DNA of 64,000 nt from Meandrina meandrites. Taxonomy: Eukaryota > Cnidaria > Anthozoa > Scleractinia > Meandrinidae. The DNA is taken from assembly GCA_963693305.1 (NCBI GenBank), contig OY855909.1:1524501-1588500 (forward strand), given 5' to 3'. The notes under the pieces were generated by a model. It was not told where the DNA came from, made no database searches, and saw only the letters and a program-made list of their open reading frames with translations. How positions within the stretch are numbered: position 1 is the stretch's first letter; each line of letters starts with the position of its first letter. The position numbers were made by a program, and so were the translations under genes. Positions 1 through 51,300 of this stretch are shown here, one piece after another.

Positions 1-429
1 TTGCGTGTTTCACAGTTGGCTAAACACAAAACATGGCAATTGACGTCTATGTTTTGTTATAGTAACAGAGCCGGAAGACGTGCAAGTTGTTATTTTATGG
101 CTTCAGTGCAAGGGAAGTGTAAAAAGTGTAAATGATAAGTTAACAATTTGTGAAACTCTTTCTTTTTTCTTGCAGTGTCAGATACCCCCTTTGATTGGTA
201 ACTACAATTTTAGTCCTTGGTTTAGAGCGGTTTTACTTAACCTTTGAAATAGCAATAAACTTTTAGATAATATTACACACCAATTCCATTGTTTTCTTTT
301 GTTTAGTTTTGACTATTACGCACTAATTGTTACATGTTGTTTCACAGGTCGAGTAAAACCACTCTTATTATAAATATGCTCAATATCTACAAAGGAAGTC
401 CGTGGCAATTAGCGGGTGAATCGTTATTT
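1..429. other. Upstream flank of the spondin array (duplicated block)
   Basis: No gene is seen here. The first 120 bases closely match about 27290-27410, upstream of the spondin gene at 27752. The upstream flank therefore travelled with the gene when the family was duplicated. Confidence 0.6.
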
Positions 430-590
430 ATTTGCATAAGTTTACGCCCGAGGGTCGGTTTCTAGCAAATACGGAATTTGCAAATTTGCCTAGTCATCCA
501 GGGCAGACCCTTAATATATACAAAGGGTTGTTGATCGAATTGTAAATTCCTCACGGCGTATAACACAAGCAGCAAGCGCCGGATTTGTGA
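430..590 (+). promoter_or_regulatory. Promoter of the spondin array: octamer plus TATA box
   Basis: An ATTTGCAT octamer (the classical POU/Oct site) lies at 430-437 and a TATATA box at about 515-520. The ATG follows at 593. The same pair, 85-88 bases apart, stands before the other single or leading family members (21917/22002 and 31083/31171; at 27591/27678 the octamer is changed to ATTTACAT). Internal units at 3.8, 5.6 and 7.3 kb have nothing like it within their roughly 50-base spacers. Function is inferred from conservation and spacing. Confidence 0.6.
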
Positions 591-592
591 AA

Positions 593-3500
593 ATGGCTCA
601 ACGCATAACAGCACTCGCGGCCTTTTTGACCTTTGTTGCTTTCGTTTCTTCAGCTGGTGTAAAGTGCCCAGGAACAGCAAACTACACGCTGACGTTTCGC
701 GCTCTTTGGAAATTAGACAGACATCCGAATACACCTCTTCCTAATAACGCACATTTTTCGCCTCTGGTCGGTTGTACTCATGGAGCTGACTATGTCATGT
801 GGCGTGCGGGGACAAAAGCTTCTCCTGGTGTGGAATCAGTAGCAGAAACAGGTTAGAACATCACGAACCTTTTAATCTAAAGAACATACACCCCATATGG
901 AAGGAGCCGGATTGATGCTTATATCTTAATCTTAAAATAGCGTCCCCCCCTCACCACCACCAAACCATATAAACTCTAAAACTTGTTTATCAGTTTTGTG
1001 ACAACTGTAAAATCCTGATCAAGGACCAACTATTTAGAAGAAGCTGAGATGAAAATTACTATTCTTTCCCATTCTTAGAGTATCACAGAAAACAGAGTTT
1101 AGATGGTTTTGGGGGACGCTGTCTCAAAATTAGAGACGTTTGTATGGATTTTGACCATGTTTCAAGGTCCATAACTTGGTCTCTGTTCATGACACTAAAA
1201 ACATCAAACTTGGTCAAATAATCAATTTCACCGTGATCTCTCATGCGGTGGATTCAGTGTATTGTTTGGTTAAAATTTTAATCTCGCTCTAATTCCTTAC
1301 GCAACTCCGAAATGCCAATTATTAGTATCCATCTAGTATAATTATCAACTCTTAATTTAGTTTCTCTGTGTTTTCTTATATGGTCTTATAAGGTTTTGTT
1401 ACAGACATTCTTGTTTATTTTTGATCGCTTCAATCTGTTACAAGCTTCACAGGCAACAAAAACAGAAGTGAATTTGGATTTTGGGGTTGCTTTGGCAGTT
1501 TCTTTTGTCGAAGGGCATCTTTAAAAAGCGTACAATTTATATAAGTTGAAAGTGTACTGAATGCAACTTAATTCCAGTTATTAACCGCGCGGCCATGGGC
1601 CGAGCGCGGTTCTTGCTTTGCACGGGATTTATTATTAACCGCGCGGCCATGGGCCGAGCGCGGTTCTTGCTCTGCACGGGATTTAATATTTTTTTTGTCG
1701 GTGACCAGACCCAAACCTCCACTCGGCCAAATCGGGATTGGGGCTTTGAAATCACGCAACCTGTGATGTTTATTCGCCAAAAGCTGTTGAAACATTAATG
1801 TACCGAAAATGTTGCAGACATTGTTTTCTTTATTGTGTATAAAGTATATTTTATTTTGGTTTTATCGAAACGTTGGATTCAAAGCGAATGTTGAATACAC
1901 TGAAAAAAGGTATTACGTCAGCCATGGAATGCGCTGATGTTGCAGGTTTCACTTTCGTTACGTGACAAATAACATTGTATTTTATTTGCATGTTTATGTC
2001 GGCAGAAGCGACGGTCATTAATTCAATTTGTTTCCTCTTCTGCGAGTATCTCTTGTGGGTTTAGGCAATTGAAGTGAATTCTTTGGCTATTTCATCGAAG
2101 CGAGTTCAGGGATTTGAAGGGAAATGAAATATTTGGTAAAGTAAACAATTGAGCGTGCCCGAACGTGCAGGGGTTGCGTCATCAGAAAGGAAAAATCCCC
2201 AAGCTTAAGACAGCCGGGGATAACATAAGCCTTGGATTGTGTGACTCGCGTGACTACTTTGCTAGTCCTTTACTCATAGTGCAAATAGATTAAATTTAAC
2301 CGTGGCTTTTGAGAAATAAAGCTGTTAATTGGCCAAAAATATAAGCGCGGTTTTAAGTTGCTAGCAACGTCTTGTTTTTATTATTATTTTTTTTTATGTC
2401 GGTGACCAGACGCAAACCTCCACTCGGCCAAATCGTGATCGGGACTGAATCACGCAACCTGTGATGTTTATTCGCCAAAAGCTGTTGAAACATGAATGTA
2501 CGGAAAATGTTGCGGATATTGTTTTCTTTATTGTGTATAAAGTATCTTTTCTTTTGGTTTTATCGAAGCGTTCGATTCAAAGCGAATGTTGAATACACTG
2601 AAAAAGGTATTACGTCAGCCATGGAATGCGCTGATGTTGCAGGTTTCACTTTCGTTACGTGACAAATAACATTGTGTTTCATTTGCATGTTTATGTCGGC
2701 AGAAGCGACGGTCATTAATTTAATTTGTTTCCTCTTCTGCGAGTATTTCTTGTCGGTTTAGGCAATCGAAGTGAATTCTTTGGCTATTTCCTTGAAGTGA
2801 GTTCAAATATTTGAAAGGAAATAAAATATTTGCTTAAGTAAACAATTGAGCGTGCCCGAACGTGCAGGGGTTACGTCATTACAAGGGAAAAACCCCCAAG
2901 CTAACTGAAGCTTTCCGGGGACAACATCACCCTCGGATTGTGTGACTAACGTGACTACTTTGCTAGTCCTTTACTCATAATGCAAACAGATTAAACTTAA
3001 CCGTGACTTTTGGGAAAGAAGGCTGTTAATTAGCCAAAAATATAAGCGCGGTTTTAAGTTGCTATAGCGACTTCTTGTTGTATTTTCAGGTGCAACTGCC
3101 ACTCTTAAAAATGAGATTAACGCCCAGATCGCCGCACAAAAGGTCTGGCAGCTAATTCTTCAGGGTGGAACAGGCGCTGAGGGAGAGATAACCGAAATTC
3201 ATGTCCAGGTCACATCAAACTTTTCTAAAGTGTCTTTCATCACGATGCTGGCGCCATCACCTGATTGGTACATTGGAATTGACAGCTTTGATCTTTGTGA
3301 TAATGGAAAGTGGCGTGAGAGCTGGAATGACATCATGTCGCCCCCATACGATGCCGGGACAGAGGAAGGAGAGGGATTTTCGACCAGCAATTCACCCACA
3401 AATCCACATGTTGACATTTTCCGAATCACAAACGACATGCAAGGTGCATTTAAGAACACCGAACCGATCAAAAGCTTGGGGGAGTTTCTGTTCAAAGGGA

Positions 3501-3763
3501 TAGGCTTACCAGTATTGCCAGAAGCCAGCTCTTCTACATTGACACCTCAGAGTACAGCTTCAATGTCAATGGATAAATCTTCCACAACTGCAATGCCTCA
3601 GAGTACAGCTGGAATGCCAACACAGGAGAGCTCAGTCAGTAAGTCCTCTGTTAGTTTTGCTGTTCGTGTAAGCGCTACTTTGATATTGGCTTTGTTGTTT
3701 TGTAGTCATCTGACTACTGTATATTTAAACCATTATTTTTTGTGGCCAATAAGGCAAGAATGA
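593..3763 (+). CDS. Spondin-N unit 1 (signal peptide exon 593-851, exon 2 from 3090)
   Basis: Exon 593-851 encodes the signal peptide and the first third of the Spondin-N domain and ends ACAG|GTTAG. Exon 2 starts at 3090 after TATTTTCAG. If exon 2 is read through, it continues to a stop at 3761-3763. The family's usual TGA after the hydrophobic tail is TGT here, which adds about 18 residues (CSHLTTVY...) that would spoil a GPI signal. A perfect GTAAGT donor at 3639 lets the exon stop at 3638 and join unit 2. The start is the ATG in the AAAATGGCT context shared by all copies. Intron 1 is 2.2 kb, enlarged by an insertion. Confidence 0.75.
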
Positions 3764-6700
3764 GTGTTTTGTTTTCCTGAAGTTTTTTGGACAGAAAATT
3801 CCATCCATACTGTGAAAATGGCTCAACGCATAACAGCACTCGCGGCCTTTTTGAGCATTGTTGATTTGAATTCTTTTCTACAGCTGATGTAAAATGCCCA
3901 GGAACAGCAAACTACACATTGACGTTTCGAGCTCTTTGGAAATTAGACAGACATCCGAATACACCTCTTCCTAATAACGCACATTTTTCGCCTCTGGTCG
4001 GTTGTACTCATGGAGCTGACTATGTCATGTGGCGTGCGGGGACAAAAGCTTCTCCTGGTGTGGAATCAGTAGCAGAAACAGGTTAGAACATTTTATTATG
4101 AAACCCCGACATCACGAACCTTTTAACCTTAAGAACATCCATCCATATAGAAGAAGCCGGATTGATGCTTATTTAATCTTAAACTAGCGTCCCCAGAATC
4201 ATATAAACTCTTAAAGTTGTTTATCAGTTTTGCGACAACTGTAAAATTCTGTCATGGACAACCTATTTGGAAGAAGCTGAGATGAAAATCACTATTCTTA
4301 CCCATTCTTAGAGTATTACAGTAAACAGAGTCTAGATGTATGGTTTAAGGGGACGGTCTCTCAAAATTTGAGACGTCTGTATGGATTTTGACGATGGTTT
4401 CCAGGTCCAAAATCCTTGGGCTCTGTTCATGATACTAAACACACCAAACTTGGACAAATGACCAATTTCCTCGTGGACTTTGATGCGGTGGATTCAGTTG
4501 ATTGTTTGGTTAAAATTTTCATCTCGCTCTACTTCCTTACGTTACTCCGAAATACCATGTGAAAATAATGATTATGTTGCATAATGATTGATATCCATTT
4601 AGTACACTAACTCGTAATTTAGTTCCTCTGTGTTCTTTTTATATGGTCTTATAAGGTTTTCTTGCAAACATTCTTGTATTTTCTCGATCGTTTCAATCTC
4701 TCACAAGCTTCACAGGCAACAAAAACAGAAATGGATTTGAATTTTCCGTTTGCTTTGGCAGTTTTTTTTGTCGAAGGGCATCTTTAACAAGCGTACAATT
4801 TATATAAGTTGAAAGTGTACTGAATGCAACTTAATTCCAGTTGTATTGTATTTTCAGGTGCAACTGCCACTCTTAAAAATGAGATTAACGCCCAGATCGC
4901 CGCGAAAAAGGTCTGGCAGCTAATTCTTCCGGGTGGAACAGGCGCTGAGGGAGTGATAACCGAAATTCATGTCCAGGTCACCTCAAACTTTTCTAAAGTG
5001 TCATTCATCACGATGCTGGCGCCATCACCTGATTGGTACATTGGAATTGACAGCTTTGATCTTTGTGACAATGGAAAGTGGCGTGAGAGTTGGAATGACA
5101 CCATGTCACCCCCATACGATGCCGGAACGGCGGAAGGAGAGGGATTTTCGACCAGTAATCCGGCCAGTAATCCACATGTTGACATTTTCCGAATCACAAA
5201 CGACATGCAAGGTGCATTTAAGAACACCGAACCGATCAAAAGCTTGGGGGAGTTTCTGTTCAAAGGGATAGGCTTACCAGTATTGCCAGAAGCCAGCTCT
5301 CCTACAATGACACCTCAGAGTACAGCTTCAATGTCAATGGATAAATCTTCCACAACTGCAATGCCTCAGAGTACAGCTGCAATGCCAACACAGGGGAGCT
5401 CAGTCAGTAAGTCCTCTGCTAGTTTTGCTGTTCGTGTAAGCGCTACTTTGACATTGGCTTTGTTGTTTTGAAGTCATCTGACTACTGTATATTTTAACCA
5501 TTTTTTTGTGGCCAATAAGGCAAGAATGAGTGTTTTGTTTTACTGAAGTTTTTTGGACAAAAAATTCCATCCACACTGTGAAAATGGCTCAACGCATAAC
5601 AGCACTCGCGGCCTTTTTGAGCATTGTTGATTTGAATTCTTTTCTACAGCTGATGTAAAATGCCCAGGAACAGCAAACTACACGCTGACGTTTCGTGCTC
5701 TTTGGAAATTAGACAGACATCCGAATACAGCTCTTCCTAATAACGCACATTTTTCGCCTGTGGTCGGTTGTACTCATGGAGCTGACTATGTCATGTGGCG
5801 TGCGGGGACAAAAGCTTCTCCTGGTGTGGAATCAGTAGCAGAAACAGGTTAGAACATTTTATTATGAAACCCCGACATCACGAACCTTTTAACCTTAAGA
5901 ACATCCATCCATATAGAAGAAGCCGGATTGATGCTTATTTAATCTTAAACTAGCGTCCCCAGAATCATATAAACTCTTAAAGTTGTTTATCAGTTTTGCG
6001 ACAACTGTAAAATTCTGTCATGGACAACCTATTTGGAAGAAGCTGAGATGAAAATCACTATTCTTACCCATTCTTAGAGTATTACAGTAAACAGAGTCTA
6101 GATGTATGGTTTAAGGGGACGGTCTCTCAAAATTTGAGACGTCTGTATGGATTTTGACGATGGTTTCCAGGTCCAAAATCCTTGGGCTCTGTTCATGATA
6201 CTAAACACACCAAACTTGGACAAATGACCAATTTCCTCGTGGACTTTGATGCGGTGGATTCAGTTGATTGTTTGGTTAAAATTTTCATCTCGCTCTACTT
6301 CCTTACGTTACTCCGAAATACCACGTGAAAATAATGATTATGTTGCATAATGATTGATATCCATTTAGTACACTAACTCGTAATTTAGTTCCTCTGTGTT
6401 CTTTTTATATGGTCTTATAAGGTTTTCTTGCAAACATTCTTGTATTTTCTCGATCGCTTCAATCTCTCACAAGCTTCACAGGCAACAAAAACAGAAATGG
6501 ATTTGAATTTTGCGTTTGCTTTGGCAGTTTTTTTTTGTCGAAGGGCATCTTTAAAAAGCGTACAATTTATATAAGTTGAAAGTGTACTGAATGGAACTTA
6601 ATTCCAGTTGTATTGTATTTTCAGGTGCAACTGCCACTCTTAAAAATGAGATTAACGCCCAGATCGCCGCGAAAAAGGCCTGGCAGCTAATTCTTCCGGG

Positions 6701-9397
6701 TGGAACAGGCGCTGAGGGAGAGATAACCGAAATTCATGTCCAGGTCACCTCAAACTTTTCTAAAGTGTCATTCATCACGATGCTGGCGCCATCACCTGAT
6801 TGGTACATTGGAATTGACAGCTTTGATCTTTGTGACAATGGAAAGTGGCGTGAGAGCTGGAATGACACCATGTCGCCCCCATACGACGCCGGGACAGAGG
6901 AAGGAGAGGGATTTTCGACCAGTAATCCGGCCAGTAATCCACATGTTGACATTTTCCGAATCACAAACGACATGCAAGGTGCATTTAAGAACACCGAACC
7001 GATCAAAAGCTTGGGGGAGTTTCTGTTCAAAGGGATAGGCTTACCAGTATTGCCAGAAGCCAGCTCTCCTACAATGACACCTCAGAGTACAGCTTCAATG
7101 TCAATGGATAAATCTTCCACAACTGCAATGCCTCAGAGTACAGCTGGAATGCCAACACAGGAGAGCTCAGTCAGTAAGTCCTCTGCTAGTTTTGCTGTTC
7201 GTGTAAGCGCTACTTTGATATTGGTTTTGTTCTTTTGTAGTCATCTTACTACTGTATATTTTAACCATTTTTTGTGGCCAATAAGGCAAGAATGAGTGTT
7301 TTGTTTTACTGAAGGTTTTTGGACAGAAAATTCCAGAAAAAAATGGCTCAACGCATAACAGCACTCGCGGCATTTTTGAGCTTTGTTGCTTTCTTTTCTT
7401 CAGCTGATTTAAAATGCCCAGGAACAGCAGACTACACATTGACGTTTCGCGCTCTTTGGAAATCAGACAGACATCCGAATACACCTCTTCCTAGTAACGC
7501 ACATTTTTCGCCTCTGGTCGGTTGTTCTCATGGAGCTGACTATGTCATGTGGCGTGCGGGGACAAAAGCTTCTCCTGGTGTGGAATCAGTAGCAGAAACA
7601 GGTTAGAACATTTTATTATGAAACCCCGACATCGCGAACCTTTTAACCTAAAGAACATCCATCCATATAGAAGAAGCCGGATTGATGCTCGTTTAATCTT
7701 AAACTAGCGTCCCCCAGAATCATATAAACTCTTAAAGTTGTTTATCAGTTTTGCGACAACTGTAAAATTCTGTCATGGACAACCTATTTGGAAGAAGCTG
7801 AGATGAAAATCACTATTCTTACCCATTCTTAGAGTATTACAGTAAACAGAGTCTAGATGTATGGTTTAAGGAGACGCTCTCTCAAAATTTGAGACGTCTG
7901 TATGGATTTTGACGATGGTTTCCAGGTCCAAAATCCTTGGGCTCTGTTCATGATACTAAAGACATCAAACTTGGACAAATGACCAATTTCCTCGTGATGT
8001 TTGATGCGGTGGATTCAGTTGATTGTTTTGTTAAAATTTTCATCTCGCTCTACTTCCTTACGTTACTCCGAAATGCCACGTGAAAATAATGATTATGTTG
8101 CATAATGATTGATATCCATTTAGTACACTAACTCGTAATTTAGTTCCTCTGTGTTCTTTTTATATGGTCTTATAAGGTTTTCTTACGAACATTCTTGTAT
8201 TTTTTCGATCGCTTCAATCTCTCACAAGCATCACAGACAACGAAAAACAAAAGTGTATTTGAATTTTGCGTTTGCTTTGGCAGTTTTTTTTTTGTCGAAG
8301 GGCATCTTTAAAAAGCGTACAATTTATATAAGTTGAAAGTGTACTGAATGCAACTTAATTCCAGTTGTATTGTATTTTCAGGTGCAACTGCCACTCTTAA
8401 AAATGAGATTAACGCCCAGATCGCCGCGAAAAAGGCCTGGCAGCTAATTCTTCCGGGTGGAACAGGCGCTGAGGGAGTGATAACCGAAATTCATGTCCAG
8501 GTCACCTCAAACTTTTCTAAAGTGTCATTCATCACGATGCTGGCGCCATCACCTGATTGGTACATTGGAATTGACAGCTTTGATCTTTGTGACAATGGAA
8601 AGTGGCGAGAGAGCTGGAATGACACCATGTCGCCCCCATACGATGCCGGGACAGAGGAAGGAGATGGATTTTCGTCCGCTAATGCGGCCAGTAATCCACA
8701 TGTTGACATTTTCCGAATCACAAACGACATGCAAAGTGCATTTAAGAACACGGAACCCATCAAAAGCTTGGGGGAGTTTCTGTTCAAAGGGATAGGCTTA
8801 CCAGTGTTACCACAAGCCAGCTCTTCTACATTGACACCTCGGAGTACAGCTTCAATGTCAATGGATGAATCTTCCACAACTGCAATGCCTCAGAGTACAG
8901 CTTCAATGTCAATGGATAAATCTTCCTCAATTGCAATGCCTGAGGGTACAGCTTCAATGCCAATGGATAAATCTTCCTCATTTGTAATGCCTCAGGGTAC
9001 AGCTTCAATGCCAATGGATAAATCTTCCTCAGTTGCAATGCCCCAGAGTACAGCTTCAATGTCAATGGATAAATCTTCCTCATTTGCAATGCCTCAGAGT
9101 ACAGCTTCAATGTCAATGGATAAATCTTCCTCAATTGCAATGCCTCAGGGTACAGCTTCAATGTCAATGGATAAATCTTCCTCAATTGCAATGCCTCAGG
9201 GTACAGCTTCAATGTCAATGGATAAATCTTCCTCAATTGCAATGCCTCAGAGTACAGCTTCAATGTCAATGGATAAATCTTCCTCAATTGCAATGCCAAC
9301 AACAGAGAGCTCAGTCAAAAAGAGCTCAGTCAGAAAGTTCTCTGCAAGTTTTGCCGTTCTTGTAAGCGCTACTTTGATACTGGCCTTGTTGTATTGA
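593..9397 (+). CDS. Predicted four-domain Spondin-N protein, GPI-anchored (fused tandem units)
   Basis: Proposed exons: 593-851, 3090-3638, 3884-4081, 4858-5406, 5650-5847, 6625-7173, 7404-7601, 8382-9397. They total 3516 nt, or 1171 residues. Every intron is phase 1. Internal exons are exactly 198 and 549 nt, so one repeat is 249 residues. Residues 1-22 form a signal peptide. The Spondin-N domains resemble F-spondin in pattern (CPGTANYTLTFRALW, FSPLVG, YVMW, PSPDWYIGIDSFDLC, PPYDAGT). They carry N-glycosylation sequons, for example at NYT and NFS. The tail is Ser/Thr/Met-rich and ends in a hydrophobic stretch after small residues, as for GPI anchoring. Support for fusion: only unit 1 has a promoter; units 1-3 have a GTAAGT donor upstream of the anchor; units 2-4 have a pyrimidine-rich acceptor at the signal-peptide end; the anchor stop codon is lost in units 1 and 3; the signal-peptide frame is lost in units 2 and 3. 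Alternative: separate genes and pseudogenes, or isoforms with one to four domains. Spondin-N identity is near certain; the fusion is inference. Confidence 0.65.
1578..3079. repeat. 1.5-kb insertion in intron 1 of spondin unit 1, with internal duplications
   Basis: In units 2-4 the sequence AATTCCAGTTGTATTGTATT is followed directly by TTCAG. In unit 1 about 1.5 kb separates AATTCCAGTT from TTGTATTTTCAG. The insert starts with two tandem copies, about 54 bp apart, of a hairpin (AACCGCGC...GCGCGGTT around GGCCATGGGCC, near 1581-1670). It then holds two direct copies of a roughly 701-bp sequence, starting GTCGGTGACC at 1697 and 2398. No coding capacity is seen. It is probably a non-autonomous mobile or satellite-like element; its class is unknown. 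Confidence 0.7.
3764..3883 (+). pseudogene. Unit 1/2 junction with dead signal-peptide sequence, predicted intronic
   Basis: Only 54 bases separate the unit 1 stop from ATG 3818. From that ATG the frame runs MAQRITALAAFLSIVDLNSF and hits a stop at the point where intact copies read Ala-Asp-Val. Relative to intact copies there is a 5-base length change. The segment ends TTCTTTTCTACAG|CT, a strong 3' splice site in the phase matching the donor at 3639. It is best read as part of a 245-base intron. An equivalent segment with the same frameshift lies at about 5584-5649. Confidence 0.65.
3884..5471 (+). CDS. Spondin-N unit 2 (exons 3884-4081 and 4858-5406)
   Basis: The first exon lacks a usable signal peptide and begins at CTGATGTAAAATGC after an acceptor. 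The second exon begins at 4858. Without the donor at 5407 it reads to a TGA at 5469-5471, ending in an intact hydrophobic tail, so a two-domain GPI-anchored isoform is possible. The unit is nearly identical to unit 3 across exons and intron (for example 4090-4800 against 5856-6565). This indicates recent duplication or gene conversion. Confidence 0.7.
5650..7295 (+). CDS. Spondin-N unit 3 (exons 5650-5847 and 6625-7173)
   Basis: Same layout as unit 2. The relic ATG at 5584 is frameshifted before the mature sequence, and the acceptor is at 5649. The donor GTAAGT is at 7174. Read-through continues to a stop at 7293-7295, past the anchor, because the usual stop is TGT instead of TGA. As in unit 1, this suggests the anchor-coding tail is no longer under selection. 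The domain residues are intact. Confidence 0.7.
7343..9397 (+). CDS. Spondin-N unit 4, terminal unit with long repeat stalk and GPI signal
   Basis: Exons are 7343-7601 (or 7404-7601 if spliced from unit 3) and 8382-9397. The signal-peptide frame from ATG 7343 is intact, so an independent 349-plus-residue product cannot be excluded, although no promoter motif is visible in the short spacer. This unit lacks the internal donor (CAGAAAGT instead of CAGTAAGT) and keeps its stop codon, as expected for the last unit of a fused gene. Between domain and anchor it has nine 17-residue repeats. Confidence 0.75.
8845..9303 (+). repeat. Coding 51-bp minisatellite, nine 17-residue repeats
   Basis: Nine in-frame units of the type TASMSMDKSSSIAMPQS stand between the Spondin-N domain and the GPI signal of unit 4. 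Units 1-3 and the gene at 27752 have only one to two. Repeats near the 3' end are nearly identical, indicating recent expansion. Rich in Ser, Thr and Met, it is probably an extended, O-glycosylated stalk (inference). Confidence 0.85.
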
Positions 9398-10009
9398 ACT
9401 TATTGACGCAATCTAATTAATAATACCATTTATTGTTTTGAACGTCATAAATTTATTTTCTCGGATAGGGATTGACCTATCTGAGTACTGTATAGTTTAA
9501 CCATTGGTTTTGTGGCCAATAAGGAAAGAATGACGCATTTTAACTCGAGTCAACGAGTCGTGGTGAACACTTTGGAAAGATGAGCAGTTCTAGGCTTGGA
9601 CTGTCCTTTGAAAACTACCAATGCTTTCTTGTGAATTACGTTAGACAAACTAAGCATATGGCATCCATTTTCAACATTTTACTAGGTCAGTTACATAGTT
9701 TGTAGTGTTAACTAGATCGATGCGTTGTTGTTACGCTTATATCCTGGTAAAAAGAGGAGCACAATTTTAAAAAATAAACCTATGTGCAGATAGTTTGTCT
9801 TGACGTATAATCCATCTTATGCCTGTCTTTATATTGAGACCAGTAACAAGGCCCACTGAGAAAATTGGTCAAGCTCATTCAGACGGATTATGCGCCCAGC
9901 CAATGACGAGTAAAAGTAAAAGGAAAAAAAGTTTAAAAACAACTTCTGTACCAAAGGTCTTTCTCTGTACCAGGATCTCTGAGGGACGCATGCTCAATTA
10001 TAATATATA
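9398..10009. other. 3' flank of the four-unit spondin gene
   Basis: No gene is seen. It aligns along most of its length with 30097-30670, downstream of the spondin gene ending at 30096 (shared TGGCCAATAAGG, CATATGGCATCCATTTTCAA, TGCCTGTCTTTATATTGAGA). The match ends at about 10004, where the nested insertion begins. Confidence 0.6.
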
Positions 10010-25160: not shown

Positions 25161-25304
25161 AATCATAAGAACACCTTTCTCAGATATGGATCGTCTTTTA
25201 ATTTTGGCCCTGTCAGCTTAGCAAGAGTTTTTTTTTTTTTTGTGGTAACTAAGGCAAAAGTACTGTACTGGTGCTGACCTCTTCGTGTTACGGATACCGC
25301 CCGG

Positions 25305-25505
25305 CGCTAGCTACGCGGCAGTGATAGGTGTATCCGATCGTAAAGCCGGAGAGCTACCGAAAGCTTTCGTGGTTCGTCGAAGAGACGTTACATCCGACGA
25401 GATCATTGAATTCGAGTCGCTCCCCGAGTGGTGTGGAGTTCATTGACCAGATTCCAACGTCACCAGCTTGAAAATCATACGTCGCCATCCTCGAAACAGT
25501 CAAAT
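25305..25505 (+). pseudogene. Relic of the last exon of a 4CL-like acyl-CoA synthetase
   Basis: In frame the DNA reads [20 protein letters not shown], then RRDVTSDEIIEFES. After a length change it reads EFIDQIPTSPA and, after another, KIIRR. This matches the C-terminal domain of the intact gene at 41097-41360 ([35 protein letters not shown]). The catalytic-Lys glycine context is damaged and frames are broken, so it is dead. It lies 150 bases after the spondin gene and shares no other exon. Confidence 0.75.
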
Positions 25506-27290
25506 GCGATCCAAGTTATTATCTACAGAACTTGTTGTCTTCTTTTAGAGGAGATGAGACTAGCAGAAACACTTTTTTTAGTTATAGTTATAGTTTATAC
25601 TGAGTTTCGTCATTTGTCACTGTAGTTCCCCAATTTTGATTCGTTTATATTCGAGAAACTCTTAACAGGCAGGGTAATCCGCCTATAGTATAACATAAAT
25701 TTGAGTTACCCGGGGATGTAAACAGATTTTAATGTATAAACTAATTTTGATAAAAAGATTACTTGATTTTCTCATTTGTTACCGGTTTGACTACAATTAT
25801 AAGGAATTTGGCCGACCACATCGATATAAGAACTAAATTTATATATTACCTATGAATTTCGCAATAATCTAGATTCATTCAGTTTGTCTATCCATTCAGA
25901 GCCATTCCAGAACTAAATATGTACGAAAAAGAAACATAAAACAAATGATTTCGCTGTTGTGATTCAGTTTAAGTTCTCGCGTAACGTTCTCACACCTAAC
26001 CCAGAATTTTGACATTTCTATTTGCTCCTTTGGAAAGGACGACGTTCTCGTTGCCTTTCCCGTTGCGCAGAATGGAAATTTCATAACTGCATTCGTATAG
26101 CTGTTTATCACCGAGGAAAGAAAATGGTAGGAATTTCCTTTTTGACTACAAATTGATGAACTTAAGTTTTCGATAAGTTTTCTTTCTTAGATGTATTCTT
26201 GGTTTTCATGTTACGTCATAAAATTCTGAAATCAAAATTCAATAGGCCTGCTAAACTTTCGATGTCTCTAGGTGTAAGATAAACTAAAAATATATCTTTC
26301 TGCAAATTTCCAGCTTGGCTGTGCCCCTCGTTTTAAAAACAGAGCATTTTGAATATTCGAGTTCTCCGCCGTATGTGATATCAAGCTGAGTGCCGTGACA
26401 AAGTAGTTTTGATTCAAAAAAGGCCTTTCCTTTCCATTTTGGCAGATTGAACATTCCCAACGTACTAAGTGTTGTTTATGTAAAAGTACAATAGATCTTG
26501 AGCCAAAAGTAGTCACTATTAATAGCAATATTAAGTTACAGATGGTTTCTCTGACATCACGGCGGCCATATTTGTGCCCCTCGGAAGGACACAAATATGG
26601 CGTCTCCATACTGAACCTTATAAATTTGCGTGGAAAGTTTCGGCAAATAACTCGCAAACGGTGCACCGCACAGACCTGAGATTTGGACAAATTGTTTATC
26701 TATTTATCTTCTATAATATCTGAAATTCATAGCTTCTGTCGTTGAATGGTTTCGATTTTATTTTTTTATTGCGTGACAGTGAAAACCACCAATATCATAA
26801 TAACGCGAAAATCTCGTTCCAGGTCCCCACATATACGATAACGTCGGTAAACTTGTTATTCCACACGAGCTCGGCTATCGTTTACGCCTCACAGAATATA
26901 GGTTAAAGAAATTGGCCCTTTTTTGGGCCTGGATTCATTGTTGTAACGTCAGCGCTTACAAATGCATGTATTGATGTTGTCCTCACAAGCATTCCTAAAC
27001 GGAAAAAGTTGTCCGTTTACCAATTTAGCCTGGCTGAGCGTATACGAAAAAAACTCGTTTATAAATTACAATGATTGCTTTGTGTGGACGAAAGGCCCAA
27101 ATGTATTTCTTTACAGAATTTAAAGCATACGTGTGACGCGCAAGCTTTTTTTGCTGACTATATTTTCTCTATTAAAAATTCCACAACAACAACAACGGAC
27201 TTGTTCTTTGGCCTGTAACTTTACAACTATCGTCACGTCATCTTTTGTTTGAAGTATTGGCTGCAGGGTTTGTATGACAACGGTGTTCGC
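25506..27290. other. Intergenic, no recognised gene
   Basis: AT-rich. A short hairpin (CATATTTGTG...CACAAATATG) is at about 26563-26600. The 140-residue minus-strand frame at 26268-26690 has no recognisable motif and is left uncalled. Confidence 0.5.
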
Positions 27291-27751: not shown

Positions 27752-30096
27752 ATGGCTCAACGCATAACAGCATTCGCGGCCTTTTTGGGCTTTATTGCTT
27801 TCGTTTCTTCAGCTGGTGTAAAGTGCCCAGGAACAGCAAACTACACGCTGACGTTTCGCGCTCTTTGGAAATTAGACAGACATCCGAATACAGCTCTTCC
27901 TAATAACGCACATTTTTCGCCTCTGGTCGGTTGTTCTCATGGAGCTGACTATGTCATGTGGCGTGCGGGGACAAAAGCTTCTCCTGGTGTGGAATCAGTA
28001 GCAGAAACAGGTTAGAACATTTTTTTATGAAACCCCGACATCGCGAACCTTTTAACCTAAAGAACATCCATCCATATGGAAGAAGCCATTTTCAATCGCA
28101 GAATCTGCAAGTGCGAAACTTCGTTTTTGCCGCTTTAAAGCACAAATTAAAGCAGAAACAGGTTAGAACATTTTTTTATGAAACCCCGACATCTCGAACC
28201 TTTTAACCTAAAGAACATACATCCATATACATGGCGTTAAATACAGGAATGGCTCCGGACACTTAGATTTTTTTTATTAAAGTGAAAAAAGAAAATATTC
28301 AATATAAAGTGCGCCGAGGTTGAATCGAACCCATAGCGCCGTATTAAGGTCATGTTAAGAAATCATTGAAAGATTCCTCTCTGTTGAGTTTGTTAAAAGT
28401 TTTAAAGTCACCGCATACTTAGTAAAGCACCACGGACGGAAAAGAATTTTCGGTAAATATGTTGCACACATTCGCAGTTAAAAAAAAATTGAAAAATTCG
28501 TTATAGCAAGCTCTGCGGGATTTCCGAAGGCACCCGAAGATAATCGAAAAGATCACTCATTTTTTCACGAAGATTGTTGAAGGTCAACCAAGGATTACGT
28601 ACATTTTTTCCGAAGAGTTTCTAACTTAAATTACGCGGCGCGAGTCACATTACACAATAATACAGAATGATCAACATGACTGATCAACATGACGAATACT
28701 ATAAGGTAGTTTGAAAAGGTTTTTTGCAAGCATCATTCTATTCTTTTTGTGGCCTCGGCTGTTCTTAGCTATAGCACTTTCGTTTGATGCTTTTAGGTTG
28801 AAAAGAAACCACGTTTTGACTTTCGAAAAAGGTTTAAAATCCACAGAATATCTCAAGGTAATCTTGAAATAGAGTCCCAAAAAAAACCATATACACTCTT
28901 AAAATTGTTTATCAGTTCTGAAAGAATTGTTTAATCCTGTCATGGACTTACTATCTGGAAGAAGCTGAGATGAAAATCACTACGTTTGCCCGTTTTTGAG
29001 AGTTTCTATGATTTTGGAGGAAGCTGTCTCAAAAATAGAGACGTTCGTATGAATTTTGAACCATGTGTCAAGGTCCATAACTTAACAGTCTCTAGCTGTG
29101 CATCCTAAAAGCATCAAACTTGGCCAAATGACTAACATCACTGTGATCTTTCATGCGGTGATCTCAATTTATCGATTAGTGAAAATTTTAAGCTTGCCCC
29201 AGTTGCGCAACTCCGAAATGCCAGTTCAAAATAATTATTATGTTGCATAACGATTAATATCCGTGTAGTATATCAACTCATAATTTAGTTCTTCTGTGTT
29301 TTTTTTATATGGTCTTATAAGGTTTTCCGTTACAAACTTCTTGTAAATTTTCGATCTCGTCCCCAAGAAGTGGCGTTGAGTTTTGTTTTTGCTTTGGCAG
29401 TTTTGTTTTTTTTGTCAAAGAGCAGTTTTAAAAAGCGCACAATTATTTAAGGTGAAAGTAGTGTACTGAATGCAACTTAATTCCAGTTGTATTTTATTTT
29501 CAGGTGCAACTACCACTCTTAAAAATGAGATTAACGCCCAGATCGCCGCCGAAAAGGTCTGGCAGCTAATTCTTCCGGGTGGTACAGGCGCTGAGGGAGA
29601 GATAACCGGAATTCGTGTCCAGGTCACCTCAAACTTTTCTAAAGTGTCATTCATCACGATGCTGGCGCCATCACCTGATTGGTTCATTGGAATTGACAGC
29701 TTTGATCTTTGTGACAATGGAAAGTGGCGAGAAACCTGGAATGACACCATGTCGCCCCCATACGATGCCGGGACAGATGAAGGAGACGGATTTTCGTCCG
29801 CTAATGCGGCCAGTAATCCACATGTTGACATTTTCCGAATCACAAACGACATGCAAGGTGCGTTTAAAAACACCGAACCGATCAAAAGCTTGGGGGAGTT
29901 TCTGTTCAAAGGGATAGGCTTACCAGTGTTACCACAAGCCAGCTATTCTACAATGAAACCTCAGAGTACAGCTTCAATGCCAATGGATAAATCTTCCACA
30001 ACTGCAATGCCAACAACAGAGAGCTCAGTCAGAAAGTCGTCTGCTAGTTTTGCCGTTCTCGTAAGCGCTACTTTAATATTGGCTTTGTTGTTTTGA
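27752..30096 (+). CDS. Spondin-N domain protein, GPI-anchored, single-domain copy
   Basis: Exons are 27752-28010 and 29504-30096 (phase 1), 283 residues. Signal peptide, complete Spondin-N domain, about two stalk repeats (TASMPMDKSSTTAMP) and hydrophobic anchor signal with TGA at 30094-30096. Very close to the units at 593-9397. The base that would create GTAAGT is A here (CAGAAAGT), so it ends normally. It serves as the ancestral-type single gene for comparison. A second copy of the donor (GTTAG at about 28162) lies 151 bases into the intron. Confidence 0.9.
28011..29503. other. Intron of the spondin gene at 27752
   Basis: Contains a tandem duplication of about 150 bases including the donor, then unassigned sequence. 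From about 28880 it aligns with the introns of units 1-4 (GAAGAAGCTGAGATGAAAAT, TATATGGTCTTATAAGGTTT). No coding content. Confidence 0.6.
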
Positions 30097-31254: not shown

Positions 31255-31274
31255 ATGTCAAGGCATAAAGGTAT

Positions 31275-31452
31275 TGTAAGGTAAGAAAACTTTATTTTAC
31301 CAGGGTGGCCCATTCAGCAACTAGGCTGGTATCCATTGGGGCCCTGGAACAATAAAATTATGTACAATATAAAGATGGTAAAAATATAAAAATTTGAACA
31401 AATATTTATAAAACTTTAAAAACATGAAGACTATAGCAAGCATTAATTGAAA
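31275..31452. repeat. Short interspersed repeat inside the broken spondin signal peptide
   Basis: It contains TTTATTTTACCAGGGTGGCC, related to TTATTTTACCAGGGTGACC at about 40788 in an intron of the acyl-CoA synthetase gene. Two copies of one unidentified SINE- or MITE-like family. Confidence 0.5.
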
Positions 31453-31609
31453 CTCCAAACTCCAGCACTCGCGGCCCTTTTGAGCCTTGTTGCTTTCGTT
31501 TCTTCAGCTGTTATTAAGACAGGAAAGGAACAATTGGGGGGAGGGGGCAGGGGGAAGCGGGATTTTCAGAGGGGAGGGTCACACAAAAAAATAGGAACCT
31601 TGGCAATGG

Positions 31610-31845
31610 TAGGGGTCATGAATGATCCCTTAAAATTTTGCAATGCTCGCAAAATTAGACTTCTGCTCGTAATACTCGCAACATTTTTAGTGGGTGCTCG
31701 TCCAATCCTGCTCGCATATTTTTACAAGTGCTCGGAAGCTCGAAAAGTGCTCGTTGCTCTCAGGGTACATAACTTTTATCAATGCTCGTGCTCGCAAAGA
31801 AAAACGCTGTGTTCGCATGCTCGCAAAGACCATTCGATGCCCCCA
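31610..31845. repeat. MITE of the GAATGGTC-ended family (second copy with GCTCGC words)
   Basis: Starts AGGGGTCATGAATGATCC, ends GACCATTCGATGCCCCC. The inside is repeated GCTCGC words. It shares position with the copy at 24221 within homologous introns, so it was copied with the gene. Confidence 0.6.
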
Positions 31846-32201
31846 ATGGTCGAGCCTCAATGATTATTTTTTTTAAAGGGAAGGGAGTGTCTAGCCTTGG
31901 TATCAAGCGGGCGAATATGTATACTGCATATCAGAATCAAGCTACGTTGTTTATGATTGTAATCGAGTCATGCGGTTTCACTTTATTTTGACGTAAAAAA
32001 AGACGTGACCTCCAGTTTATTTCTATTTTAGGTGCAACTGCCACTCTTAAAAATGAAATTAACGCCCAGATCGCCGCGAAAAGGTCTGACTGGCAGCTAA
32101 TTCTCTCGGGTGGTTACGACCGCTGAGGCCAAGGCCTCTGTTAGTTTTGAACTTCTCGTGAAGTCCGTAAGCGCAACTTTGAGGTTGATTTTGTTGTTGT
32201 G

Positions 32202-37200: not shown

Positions 37201-40200
37201 GGTTGATGGTGGCTCAGATAAATCCTATACCTACAACGAGCTCAGTACATCAATAAAAAAGTTTGCGTCAGCGTTAGCAAAGAGGGGTTTCAAGAAAGGT
37301 GATGTGTTTGCTCTCTACCTTCCAAATGTCCCTGAGTACCCTATTTTATTCTTTGGCGTCATTACCCTCGGAGGTGTTGCAACAACTTTAAATCCAGCTT
37401 TCACGGAAAAAGAGATTGCTTACCAGCTAAAGAACTCAGGTGCTAAGTACATTATTACGGTGCCTGCCATCGCCGACAAAGCCAAACAGGCAGCAGCAGA
37501 AGTTGGAATAAAGCAGGTCTTTGTGATTGGTGAAGCGGAAGGGTGTGAGCCACTTACATCACTCCTCAATGACGATGGCATGGCCTTTCCGGAGAATGTG
37601 TCAATCAGTCCCAAAGAGGATGTGTGTGTTATGCCGTACTCTAGTGGTACAACCGGATTCCCTAAAGGCGTCATGCTGACACATCATAACATAGTGTCAC
37701 AGTTGTGTATGATCACGCATGACCGTTTCAGGTCTCATCCATTACGTGGTACGACACTCGGGCTTCTGCCATTTTTCCACATCTTTGGTATGGTGGTCTT
37801 GATGGTGCAGTATCTCCAGCGTGGAGGGAAGATTGTCTGTATGCAGCAGTTTGATGGTGAACACATGTTGAAGCTTGTACAGGACTTCAAGGTTTGTTTA
37901 ATTCGTATTTATCATCATCGCCATCTTGATTACAGTTACTGACAGTATTATGGTCATCATTGTTAAATATATTGCAATTCAATCATCATGTTGTCATCAT
38001 CTTCTTCATCATCAATGCCATCTTCAGCAGCTAGTCGTAGCAATGTTATCATCACATCATCATCATCACTGTTGTCTTCACCATCATGATTTTGTCATCA
38101 TCATGATATCAACCCACAAGCTGCCAGAAGACAATTCCGTTATCGGTTCTTCCAAACATTGCTGTACTGTAATTAAAATTCATCCAAATTCTGTTTTATT
38201 CTTTTTTTATTTCATGTCAAAACTTATTAATAACAGCACACCCACACTGATGGCCAACTCTCTATAATGGCAGTAACTTTCTTTCTGACCATGCTACCCT
38301 GATCCATACATACACATTTCTCTACACTCATTGGAAGCTCTATTTTGGCCACATATCTCTACAACTTAGCAAATTAATTCTACTCCAGGCTGGCTGGTGT
38401 AGAGAGTTTCAATTGCAATTTATCCTGCAATGGACATAATACTCACCACCCTAAAACAGGTTCGTTAATTATACTTGTATTGCAGATACACTGTTTATAT
38501 CTTGTGCCACCAATCATCACGTTTTTAGCCAAGCATCCATCCGTGAAGAATTATGACCTAACGAGCATTGACACCATCATCAGTGGTGCGGCACCTCTTG
38601 GTGAAGAACTTACCCATGCAGTGAGGAAAAATCTTCCCTTTGTTGTAGCTCTTGGACAAGGTTAGCATTGGCTGAACTAGATAAGGCATACTTAGTTAAA
38701 ACGTTCTCTCCCCTTATTAATCAAGCTATTTTATGTACTACTGTGCAGTGCCTCTGATTAGGTATAATTATGTTCAGTTTTCATGTGCAAGTTGCAGCCA
38801 TTTTGTTTTGATCTCTGTTAAGCTGTGCCATTTGTGTAGAACTTTGTTTGTTCAATCTTGGCATTCCTCAAGTAGCTAGGGAAAGAATTGAATATGCAAA
38901 GAGAGAATAAGTCTTGGTTAGGCAGGCCAGGAAGTTAAATCTTGACATAATTTCCTCTATCCTCTTGCAGGGAATGGGTCTGAACATGATCAGTGTACCT
39001 TTTATTTTATTTGATATATTGAGGTCCATTTTGTAGTAATTATAAAATGGCATAGGTGGATGTAGGGGCAGAGTTGCATTAAGGGGATTGTGCTGGCTCC
39101 TTCTAAAGGTCAGCTGATAATGAACTGATTTCAATCATTGGAGATATAAAAAATTGTATAAATAATTAAATTATTATTTTACTTATAATTTTAATATTAT
39201 TTCTCTGGTCTGAATTTAAGGATATGGTCTAACTGAGACAAGCCCAGCAGCAATGCTTTGTCCTCGGAATAGCTGCAAGCCTGGTGCTGTGGGAGTTATG
39301 TTGCCAAATCTTGAAGGAAAAGTAAGTACCGGTAATTAATGGGTGGGAGGAGGGGGGGAAGGAAGGTGGAAGCCTGGGATAATAGGGGGTGGGGGGGGGG
39401 GTATTGGCTACAGTGAGAAGAGAGTGCAAGAAGCGCGATTCCCAAGGTGGCAGCGCGATTCCCAAGGTGGCAGGAACTGGGAAAAATTGGGAGAAATGTT
39501 GCAACAGTGAACAAAGACGCAGGAACCACTGAGGAAAGGATGGCAACTCAGCTGTGAATGAGACAGGAAGCCAGGAAGCCAGGATGCCAGAGAAGTGGGG
39601 GGGGGGGGGGGGGGGGGGGGTCAGACACCACTTTCCCTCCACTGATTATACACATGACCCATACTAAGTCTAACTCACACCTAGTCAACTAAAGCTATTG
39701 CAAGGGGACTTTTAATAATCAGTTTCAGCTGACTGCCCAAGCGATGAGAAATCAACTCTCTGTCATTTTTTTCAGGTGATTGATGTTCAGACTGGTGAAT
39801 TACTTGGCCCAAACCAAGATGGAGAGGTGTGCATGAGAGGACCTACTATTATGAAAGGTTCGTGGATAACATGTTGCTTTCAAATGCAGTACAGCTTTCT
39901 CTCAAATAAATATAGTGCACACTTTATTTGAGAGGAGAACTGCTGAAACAAATGAATAACAAAATAAACATGAGTGGGGTATGATGGATGCACCACTCGA
40001 CCTCACCTGCTCCCCTTGCTCCCTTGTAAACCACCATTTGTTCTAAACTCAGGAATGCCAAGAACAAATCCAGTCAATTGCAAAGTGTAGGATTTATTCT
40101 GACTAGTACCTAGATCTCCCACAGCCAGTGCACTTAAGCTAACAAGCCGCACAAGCCATGCAAATCAGCAAGAAACTTATAATAGAACATAAATATATAC

Positions 40201-44222: not shown

Positions 44223-45092
44223 TTAGTCTTGTGAATAGTCCTTTAGGGTGCTGTCATCCAAATGCGTGTTCAGTTTCTTGAAATTTCGTTTTCTGTTTGG
44301 TTTCCTTCGCTGTTGGGTTTGCTGTGGTTTTCTAATGCCAGAGTCTTGCATTGTTGTGATCCCAGCATTTACCAAATACTTTTCAATGTCGTTTTCACCG
44401 ATCCCATCAACGGACACCCCTCGCCAGTGCTTCTGGAACTCTTCATCTACTTCAAGCTGGTACTGTTCGTTCTTAAAGAACAGGATAACTTTCTTGTCTG
44501 TAGTGCGAGTTATAAACGTGATTCGTCGTCCCACTGATTTTATAACTTCGTCGGCATCAGGTAAACTTTCCCGAATGTCATCGAGAAGAATTCCACCTAG
44601 ACCGGTGTCTTCGTGTCGTTCAAGTAGCTTCAACAACTGTTTCTTGTCCTTAATGTGATACTTTGGTTTGAAGACAAATTTACCCTCTCTGTGAACGAGT
44701 TTAGAGTTTTCTTTCAAAGCTTCATTCCCCAGCCAAGCTTTGTCGCTTTGATTGATGTCGGTGTACTTAATTTGATCGAGAATTTCGTCCAGGCTCAAAG
44801 GATCGAACTTGCGCTGAAGATGGCGCTTCTTCATGAAGTCTACAATAGCAGCGAGCACGGCAAACTTATGCTTGTTTCTAAACGTGTGAGTTTTATAGTC
44901 CATAGCAGGACTGGCTGGTTTCTTTGGCTGCAAAAGTTCCTTAGGTAGATAGCTACTCTTTGGTACTTTTGGCCTTGGTTTTGACCTATTTGGCTCGCTG
45001 CTTGTCGGTTTTGACTTTTTTGATTCGACAGTTGGTTGTTTGATACTCCTTGCCTTGAAGTCCTTCAAGTCCTTGAGTAGGGAAGGATCCAT
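44223..45092 (-). CDS. GTF2E2: Transcription initiation factor IIE subunit beta
   Basis: A single exon of 289 residues, close to the 291 of the human protein. TFIIE-beta pairs with TFIIE-alpha and recruits and stimulates TFIIH at RNA polymerase II promoters. It begins MDPSLLKDLKDFK like vertebrate orthologues. A basic, Ser/Pro/Lys-rich linker (about 15-65) leads to the first winged helix (KFAVLAAIVDFMKKRH ... LTLDEILD-type region), then FKPKYHIKDKKQLLKLL and GLGGILLDDIRESLPDA, and VDEEFQKHWRGVSVD. The C-terminus is basic and ends LKDYSQD. No intron is present, whereas vertebrate genes are interrupted. The gene sits head-to-head with claspin, 300 bases apart. Confidence 0.95.
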   Translation of the reverse strand: MDPSLLKDLKDFKARSIKQPTVESKKSKPTSSEPNRSKPRPKVPKSSYLPKELLQPKKPASPAMDYKTHTFRNKHKFAVLAAIVDFMKKRHLQRKFDPLSLDEILDQIKYTDINQSDKAWLGNEALKENSKLVHREGKFVFKPKYHIKDKKQLLKLLERHEDTGLGGILLDDIRESLPDADEVIKSVGRRITFITRTTDKKVILFFKNEQYQLEVDEEFQKHWRGVSVDGIGENDIEKYLVNAGITTMQDSGIRKPQQTQQRRKPNRKRNFKKLNTHLDDSTLKDYSQD

Positions 45093-48300: not shown

Positions 48301-51300
48301 GAATGCTCAATCCAGGGTGCAGCACATTAACCAGTAGGCCACCACGCCTCCCATATCATCTCCTACTATGACACAAGACTATTAGTTTTTTTATCATTTT
48401 TATTTTGAAATAATACAATGGCATACGCATTCTTCTACTCAGGAGACCACAAGTCGAAATTTCAGCAAGTCCACCTGAGAGCCAAATCTCACCACCCAGT
48501 GATGATAAGCCTGACGATCACAAGCTTACCAGTCCTGTGCCAGGGGATACTGCCAGTCCCACAGGGACTGTTAATGGAGTTAAGGTGCCCATCAAAGCAG
48601 CCACACCCAAACTGAGTGCCGCAACAGATCCTTTCTTCCTGGATATGGATGACACCCCATCTTTATCAAAACCTGCAAATAAAGGAGTTCAGAGTTTAAT
48701 GGACAGGTAATAGTTCCAGGATAGTGTATTTTTTGTAATTTTTTGTAATAATTTTTGGTGTGATATCTGTAGATTTTTACCGACCAAATTAAATGTAGCT
48801 ACTACAATGGGTAGTTGTCAATCACATCTCTTTTCTTGTGACACATCTTGCTTCTGATGTCTTGAACATGTAGAAATTATCACTACATTGGTAGCACATT
48901 CATGCACCATACAAAAAAAAAATCATAAACCTTTGCTGTCCTCCTTAGATTACTAATTTATTTATTGCATTGTTTTTCCAGGTTTTCAAAACACACTTCA
49001 AAGCCTCGAGATAAATCTGTGACCCCAGTAAGATCTACCGAGACAAAAGATAATCAAGCAGATCCTGTTAATGAGGAGGGTACACCCAAACTCAGAGCAG
49101 TGACACCTGTAGTATCTGATGATAAATTAAAGGCTGCTACACCTGGTAAGACTCTTTGTTGACCTTCATTTTTTCAGATTTTAATAAATACCATCCTTTG
49201 ACATCCTGGAAATTTCTAGACATCATTTACATGCAGAAAAAACAAATCAAGCTTCCTTCAGACATTATAACTAGTACAAGGCTGTGCTCTAAGAAAAATG
49301 ACAAGGAGCCCAAAGGTTCCAAACTATGAGATCCAGGGTGCCCAGCATAAAGCCTATACAAAAGAAATAAGATTATCTGGTCACCTAAAGGCAAAAGTTG
49401 GCCACCTGAGGCATCCAGGCGCCCTTAGAGCACAGCCCTGTAGTATGCACTGGTTTTCTCGAACTCTGCAAGTCCAGATACACCATTGTTTTCTTTGCGA
49501 TGATACAATAACATGCAGGTTACTAATAATGGGACAGCCTGACAGACAAGTTGAAAATTGCAGTATTTCAATTTTTGCTTCACTGCTGACTACAATGTAT
49601 ACTCAAGCATAAAAATTTGTGAGGTATTGGTCAAGCCACTCATGTATGTTTGTTTTTTGCTTTTTTTTTGCAGGCTCTAGGCTTCAACTTCTTAAGGAGC
49701 AGTTGCAGAAACAAATGAAAGTGAAGCGCGCTGAAGTTAGGAAAATACAAGAATCCCAGCGCAAGTTAGATAATGAAGAAATGAGTGAAGAGGAAGAGGA
49801 GGAAATGACAGATGAAGAAGGCATGACATTAAGAATAATTTAATGCATCATTACATTAGTTATTGGCATTTTGTAACTTACTGGAAAACTTTCACTGTGG
49901 TTAAAGCAGAAGTTAGTGATTTTAGCAAGGGTGCCCTTAGGCTTAAAAGATGACTGCTGTGTCCACAGCCTTAAACCCATTACCGGTAATTGTTTTGTAA
50001 TGAAGTATAACAGCCAGGTATCTGAAAACAGAAAACATCAGTAACTGCTACATGTACAGTTAAGGTAGCAATTTGTAAAGCTTACTAGTGGAGGGGGACA
50101 GGGGGGGGGGGGGGGGGTGCAAACCCAGGAGAATAAAGGGTAGGGGGGGTGTGGGAGGTGGAAAAAGAGAGGGTGGCAAGTGAGATCCCAAGGTGACAGG
50201 AACCAGGAGAAATTGAAAAAAATGTTTCAATCTTTTGTAATATTTTGCAATAAAGAAAGCAAGTGGAAATTCAGTAGAGGTTCCCCCTTACTTTTTTAGG
50301 AAAAACATTATAATTAGCAGGACTGTCATTAAGTGTTTAGGCAGCCCTTTCATTGAAGTTGACACCCATAGCATTTCCCTCTGTATGCAAGTGTAACGTA
50401 ACACCAATCAATGTCTTCACCCATAACATCAAGTTAACTCAGTCGTAACTGGTGTTGTGGGTTATAGCCCTTGATGACAGTCCTGATTATTATAATATTA
50501 TTTTTGGTTTCTGTAGATGATTCTGATTATGAACTTGACAAATGGAATGCAGATGATGAAAGAAAACAAGAGGAAGGTGAAAGTGATCTTGAAAAAGAAG
50601 AAGCAAAGGACAAAAATGCCTTTATCGAAGACGAGGCTGATGAAAGTGATAATGGTGATGATGATAACGGAAGATATGATGTTGATTCAGGATCTGAGGG
50701 TGACATAAGCGATGGAGGTGAAAGTGACAACAGTGCAGATGGAGACTCAGTATTTAGTGATGACGGATTGACTGCAACAACCTCCAACCGTAAATCAAAA
50801 AGGAAACAAAAGAAATCCAAACAAACAGCAGTGAATCTAGAGGAAACAACGATGGATCTTTTTGTTGACAGCCGCTCCAAAGAAGGAGTAACTGATGATG
50901 AACCTTTACCGATGAACAGCAACTCAGAAAAAGATAGTGGTGAGAGTGTGGCAAGTCTTTGCCTTCGTCTTGACAGTGTTGAGGATGGTGATGACACAAA
51001 TTTTAATTTCCCAAGCTTGCCAGTATCAACAAAGTTCAAAACAAAAATGAGTTCTAAAGGAGAAAGAAATTTGACGAACATTTCTGAAGTATCACAGGAG
51101 TCCAGCCAGTCTAGCTTTGGAGCAGGGTTAGGATCAGAGTTTGGTGAAAGTGCTAATAGTCTTGATGCAAGTAGTGACAGCAGCAGGATCCCCCCAGGAC
51201 AGGGGGATAATAATGCCCAGGGGAATGAAGACAGGAGTCTTGATGCTAGTAGCGACAGCAGCAGGATCCCCCCACGACAGGGGGATAATAATGCCCAGGT

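Follow-up and report, generated by a model that had tools for sequence, protein, structure and literature searches.

A tandem spondin array in the coral Meandrina meandrites may form one four-domain gene with bridge introns made of targeting signals

Do four tandem copies of a secreted, anchored spondin gene act as four genes, or as one? The question is raised by the array at 593-9397 of the 64-kb stretch of DNA analyzed here (the window; G000:C7:1524501-1588500 of a 551-Mb assembly). On its sequence anatomy, we consider it likely that the array is one transcription unit in which four spondin units are fused.

Layout of the array and its predicted product

Joining the eight predicted exons of 593-9397 (Table 1) gives 3,516 nt, or 1,171 codons, with a sole, terminal stop. 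The initial annotation had placed bridge donors and acceptors in phase 1, and the junctions are indeed in frame; the internal exons have the sizes it gave, 198 and 549 nt. The four Spondin-N domains it predicted were recovered in a Pfam scan of the joined product, which matched PF06468 (Spond_N) in four stretches at 569 bits, against a curated cut-off of 24. All internal boundaries of the predicted exons are phase 1, the arrangement of Class 1-1 modules if splicing is as predicted, so exon skipping would keep the frame, and alternative splicing could change how many domains the product carries. The stalk of the predicted product consists of nine 17-residue repeats, and the hydrophobic tail, judged by eye, runs up to the stop in unit 4. 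We infer transcription, splicing and anchoring of a four-unit gene from this anatomy.

Full Spondin-2 and Spondin-1 (mindin and F-spondin) carry thrombospondin repeats. The coral domain resembles both by sequence, the single gene at 27752 as query matching their solved structures (Spondin-2, PDB 3d34, E 9e-31; Spondin-1, PDB 3q13, E 1e-23). Unlike F-spondin and mindin, the joined four-unit product has no thrombospondin type 1 repeat after Spond_N, the Pfam scan finding no thrombospondin repeat or family in it.

Intron 1 of unit 1 contains an inserted element in two diverged copies (1575-3075; 90% identity over 700 nt) and a 54-nt tandem repeat; the corresponding introns of units 2-4 are just 776-780 nt.

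Table 1. Features of the predicted four-unit spondin gene (window positions; a slash marks the splice point)
Feature	Position	Strand	Remark
Unit 1 5' flank, promoter-like; TATA-like TATATA at 515-520	418..592	+	Similar to flanks of genes at 22082 and 27752
Exon 1, unit 1: signal peptide and front of Spondin domain 1; donor CAG/GTTAGA	593..851	+	
Exon 2, unit 1: remainder of Spondin domain 1 and Ser/Thr linker; 3' end is the new donor	3090..3638	+	
Bridge intron 1: anchor-signal relict, spacer, unit 2 signal-peptide relict; GTAAGT...CTACAG	3639..3883	+	
Exon 3, 198 nt: front of Spondin domain 2	3884..4081	+	
Exon 4, 549 nt: remainder of Spondin domain 2 and linker	4858..5406	+	
Bridge intron 2	5407..5649	+	0/12 poly(A) hexamers in its spacer, 5470-5583
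Exon 5, 198 nt: front of Spondin domain 3	5650..5847	+	
Exon 6, 549 nt: remainder of Spondin domain 3 and linker	6625..7173	+	
Bridge intron 3: 3' end is intact signal-peptide code	7174..7403	+	0/12 poly(A) hexamers, 7237-7342
Exon 7, 198 nt: front of Spondin domain 4	7404..7601	+	
Exon 8: Spondin domain 4, then mucin-like stalk and a hydrophobic, anchor-like tail up to the stop	8382..9397	+	
Tandem repeat, 51 nt x 9 copies, coding for Ser/Thr-rich stalk	8837..9297	+	
AATAAA, probable poly(A) signal for all four units	9773..9778	+	Aligns with AATAAA at 30450

Promoter and poly(A) signals

Unit 1 shares a 5' flank of at least 175 nt before the ATG, with a TATA-like box, with genes 22082 and 27752; its flank is 84% and 87% identical to theirs, respectively, in blast matches that extend into exon 1. 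Neither blast nor alignment found a promoter-like flank of this type upstream of units 2-4. Similarity of units 2, 3 and 4 to unit 1 begins at window positions 586, 586 and 590, only 7, 7 and 3 nt before the ATG, and is preceded by the gene's own 3' flank, which can be aligned to the sequence 3' of unit 4 and of 27752. Thus the repeated unit begins immediately upstream of the ATG and ends ∼130 nt beyond the stop, whether from birth or through later deletion.

None of 12 poly(A) hexamers is present in the three inter-unit spacers (3700-3817, 5470-5583 and 7237-7342). AATAAA and ATTAAA are absent throughout 2991-9772, an absence that the repetition of the units makes less than it looks; 0 of 1,890 overlapping segments of the same length, taken from both strands of 10001-64000, lack both hexamers. 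The AATAAA at 9773 behind unit 4 aligns with one at 30450 behind 27752, both lying outside the repeated unit. CATAAA also follows these two copies (9446 and 30100) and is deleted by a 32-nt gap in units 1-3. Gene 22082 has no AATAAA or ATTAAA for ∼2 kb downstream, with variants only at 25162-25800, so absence between units is no proof of fusion. That both promoter and poly(A) signals are missing from the inter-unit stretches does strengthen the reading of the array as one gene.

Splice sites at the bridges

Splice sites were scored with a weight matrix of human base frequencies, which may not fit coral. The donors proposed earlier at 3639, 5407 and 7174 are present, and we read them as TCA/GTAAGT; the acceptors lie before 3884, 5650 and 7404. 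At the homologous donor position unit 4 and gene 27752 have TCA/GAAAGT, the one-base difference that had been claimed for them, and gene 22082 has CCAAGT. GTAAGT is therefore found in 3/3 upstream units versus 0/3 terminal or single copies; its base rate in the 64-kb window is 14 on the + strand, bridge donors included, and 14 on the - strand.

The new donor scores 0.8 bits on the human matrix (top 7.2% of 3,583 GTs), the exon-1 donor CAG/GTTAGA 2.9 bits. In all three junction regions the new donor ranks second behind CGT/GTAAGC, located 29 nt downstream and scoring 2.0 bits. Predicted U1 pairing prefers the new donor to this neighbor (-5.1 vs -4.4 kcal/mol, with -7.1 for the exon-1 donor). 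The neighboring donor underlies an alternative that we hold to be unlikely, namely that there is one transcript in which GTAAGC (3668, 5436, 7203) is mostly used, or the spacer kept, so that unit 1 yields a one-domain protein and the remainder goes untranslated or the message is degraded. Matrix scores favor it, and its phase-0 donor joins to an early stop; U1 pairing does not favor it, nor do the exons of units 2 and 3, which are open and whose differences lean synonymous, neither being needed in an untranslated stretch.

On the acceptor side, no AG in any of the three junction regions outscores the predicted site, which reaches 3.7 bits for units 2 and 3 (top 3.3% of AGs) and 7.6 bits for unit 4 (top 0.2%). 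Intact signal-peptide ends score 6.2 (unit 1), 6.2 (27752) and 6.1 bits (22082), within the top 0.6% of AGs, so that the acceptor of units 2 and 3 is weaker than the ancestral signal-peptide acceptor (3.7 vs 6.1-6.2 bits). Because the intact signal peptides score equal to or better than units 2 and 3, the acceptor predates the fusion, and the donor alone looks new. The proposal of newly made splice sites thus survives for the donor; for the acceptor it is rejected, an equal or better acceptor-like sequence being already latent in the intact signal-peptide codes.

At junction 1, 7 of 136 GT-AG pairs leave the frame open. The three bridge junctions are copies of each other, and do not amount to three independent coincidences.

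History of the units and possible constraint upon them

Sites informative between unit 1 and unit 4 were compared along an alignment that omits the unit 1 intron insert (1576-3060), the unit 4 repeats (8837-9297), part of the 27752 intron and gap columns. Units 2 and 3 are mosaic. In the intron each is unit-4-like at 71/83 informative sites, and in the first part of exon 2 both follow unit 4 at 13/20. The last part of exon 2 is unit-1-like at 19/20 (unit 2) and 20/20 (unit 3) sites, from a breakpoint at 5168 that was picked after a first view of the site pattern. The anchor relict and spacer follow unit 1 at 17/20 sites in unit 2 and 18/20 in unit 3; exon 1 is of mixed affinity (6:6 and 8:4, respectively). 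Units 2 and 3 are thus hybrids with a unit-4-like front and a unit-1-like back, as unequal crossing over predicts; gene conversion could yield part of the same pattern. Given such hybrid internal units, the array probably arose when an already fused two-unit gene was multiplied, and not when four separate genes were joined. The initial annotation's fusion of four genes into one is in this respect revised, and its single gene remains the best reading, given the missing inter-unit signals.

Units 2 and 3, of 1766 and 1759 nt, differ from each other at 5/776 intron and 15/745 exon sites (Fisher P 0.023). Exons in this region (3818-7342) are more divergent than introns, the opposite of what is expected; conversion from other copies is a guess at the source of the exon excess. 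Units 1-3 have no exon indels among themselves and no internal stop. Of the exon differences between units 2 and 3, 7/15 are nonsynonymous where ∼11 are expected (P 0.019), a count more cautious than the earlier ratio of 0.19, which excludes the linker. Hand-counted changes private to these units are 4/9 nonsynonymous (P 0.052), including two in the linker, where unit 1 is the sole comparison. On these counts constraint on units 2 and 3 is suggested at most, with gene conversion blurring the signal. Clear proof of selection we reject: the units are mosaic, and their exons differ more than their introns.

The segments predicted to be skipped had been described as having lost constraint, with frameshifted signal peptides in units 2 and 3 and lost anchor stops in units 1 and 3. 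The lesions are there: a 5-nt frameshift lies in the signal peptide of units 2 and 3, within the predicted skipped segment, and the anchor stop has changed from TGA to TGT in units 1 and 3 and is kept as TGA in unit 2. Clearly faster evolution is not, the anchor relicts of units 1-3 differing at 3-4/70 sites, near the 1.8-4.2% of exon 2.

The frameshifted signal peptides could also mean that units 2 and 3 are young pseudogenes, with unit 1 and perhaps unit 4 expressed singly. With intron differences at only 5/776 sites, their open frames could reflect little time. We nonetheless give this reading a small chance, slightly below that of the downstream donor, as unit 4 lacks a promoter-like flank, the first canonical poly(A) hexamer past exon 2 of unit 1 is at 9773, and all four domains and phases are intact. 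An assembly artefact, in which collapsed or duplicated haplotypes supplied the extra units, would account for the high similarity of units 2 and 3; it is quite improbable, as the two differ in length and at scattered sites, and a protein on another contig, one of 253,988 bases, P0123, departs from the exon-2 frame of unit 2 at 2/215 residues, with equal length to the stop. P0123 differs at 9 residues from unit 3 and 38 from unit 4; the cluster to which it belongs numbers 3, all on 1 contig. Four independent genes are rejected, units 2-4 being without a promoter-like flank and units 2 and 3 without a usable signal peptide.

Proposed route to a four-unit gene

The single-gene reading suggests the following route. 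A gene for signal peptide, Spond_N and anchor would have undergone tandem duplication, or deletion between tandem copies, such that ∼130 nt of 3' flank past the stop came to end within a few bases of the next copy's ATG. Because the 3' flank was joined directly before that ATG, no promoter or poly(A) signal would be left between copies; transcription would start before unit 1, and the message would be cut downstream of the AATAAA at 9773. Mutation of a single base, turning GAAAGT into GTAAGT in the pre-anchor linker, would have supplied a phase-1 donor, and the pyrimidine-rich stretch that closes the following signal peptide, TTCTTCAG or TTCTACAG with CT after it, could serve as phase-1 acceptor. 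Anchor signal, spacer and signal peptide would then be spliced out together as a bridge intron of 230-245 nt. Unequal crossing over, copying the bridge, may have grown the array from two units to four. The product would be secreted by means of the unit 1 signal peptide, would carry four Spond_N domains on Ser/Thr linkers, and would be anchored by the tail of unit 4; perhaps, to judge by other spondins, its role is multivalent binding to matrix or microbes.

Barbatia has a two-domain globin gene for which a bridge intron is described (Naito et al. 1991, in passages of PMC4732748), with unequal crossing over invoked. As those passages present it, the globin gene, like the coral array, has tandem domains in one gene and an inter-domain intron whose 3' end resembles the 5' end of the gene. 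The match in Barbatia is to a pre-coding intron, and in coral to signal-peptide code, the bridge 3' ends aligning with the signal-peptide codes of unit 1, 22082 and 27752. Unlike Barbatia as there described, the coral array has its donor within the pre-anchor linker and three copies of the bridge. Class 1-1 modules, as treated in parts of PMC8001218, likewise have an extracellular domain between phase-1 introns, one at the signal-peptide boundary and the other in a linker. Under the modularization hypothesis, as set out in the same parts, introns are inserted at AG/G sites; in the coral case the boundary sequences themselves would turn into intron, none being inserted.

A route via an intron made of anchor signal, spacer and signal peptide would be a novel variation on these. 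The available portions of PMC1626468, PMC4503718, PMC4732748, PMC10236652, PMC8001218 and PMC13172734 describe neither this locus nor this fusion route.

In animal proteins, the excess of Class 1-1 modules, and of phase-1 introns at the signal-peptide boundary, is credited in parts of PMC1626468 and PMC8001218 to proto-splice-site insertion or exon shuffling. A young array beside single-copy relatives offers a further testable route, in which spacer and targeting signals become intron, and it may be one way in which animals build multi-domain surface proteins. As a tentative generalization, which we doubt more than we believe, secreted, anchored single-domain genes may be primed for fusion: the end of the signal peptide would be a latent phase-1 acceptor, and the common V-(G/S)-K motif ahead of the anchor would be, or nearly be, a phase-1 donor, so that bare tandem duplication could yield multi-domain surface proteins and Class 1-1 modules with no need for intron insertion. 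Back-translations of signal peptides exceeded the acceptor threshold in 38/800 cases versus 12/800 for mature windows, in 8 proteins picked by pattern from 239 among the matches listed; this gives only modest support for signal-peptide code being generally acceptor-like. A V-(G/S)-K-like motif precedes the tail in 44 of 62 relatives scanned (including SVGK in 31, SVSK in 4 and AVGK in 3), a count from proteins alone that says nothing on GTAAG in the codons.

For genome annotation, parts of a Porites/Pocillopora genome paper (PMC10236652) report splitting multi-tandem-copy alignments at introns >5 kb as a guard against gene fusions. Genome annotation may remove real fused genes; the coral bridge introns are far below 5 kb.

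Relatives and other copies

At least 18 Spond_N matches were found in the genome, distributed over this cluster, a unit pair 0.4 Mb away and two places on contig C3. The C3 loci (L010 and L011) gave one short tblastn match apiece, of 44% across 45 residues and 39% across 61, and a motif scan of them gave no match. Protein matches in Oculina and Desmophyllum have 60-72% identity, in keeping with a stony coral.

The pair 0.4 Mb away is a two-Spondin gene (G000:C7:1930325-1933403, in locus L009, G000:C7:1926500-1936400, - strand), with exons of 256, 627 and 515 nt and both introns in phase 1; it is 63% identical to Oculina P0005. Like the four-unit gene, it and P0005 have tandem Spond_N domains, here two, and a hydrophobic tail, and the gene in this genome also has a signal peptide. 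Unlike the four-unit gene, it has its units joined within one 627-nt exon, in which the back half of the first unit is continuous with the front half of the second, without a bridge intron; P0005 is alike. In P0129, an exon-2/exon-1 frame on a 103,338-base contig, the linker continues into the KCPG start of the next unit; as judged from the protein, the join is a single frame apparently without the bridge intron of the four-unit gene. Because the two-domain paralogue, P0005 and P0129 are also joined, fusion of tandem Spondin units looks recurrent; the bridge-intron form was seen only at this locus among the relatives examined.

Of 239 proteins among the matches listed, 37 contain at least two matches to a single Spondin query, some of these proteins being bacterial; P0023 has four Spondin matches, and its entry also names thrombospondin repeats. 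Multi-Spondin proteins are no rarity, and both they and bridge introns are already known. The spliced junction VTDVKC/VTDLKC was present in 0/317 proteins among the matches listed of three database searches, which speaks against the fusion. The nearest of these entries, P0123, is an exon-2 frame in unspliced form, and the database may therefore simply lack expressed sequence of this species.

Elsewhere in the window, a degenerate Spondin copy at 31264-32201 retains a signal-peptide-like stretch (31463-31510), a truncated exon 2 and an anchor-like tail. Open frames resembling, as judged by eye, TFIIE beta (44223-45092), acyl-CoA ligase (37304-37942) and claspin (50471-53748) were also noted.
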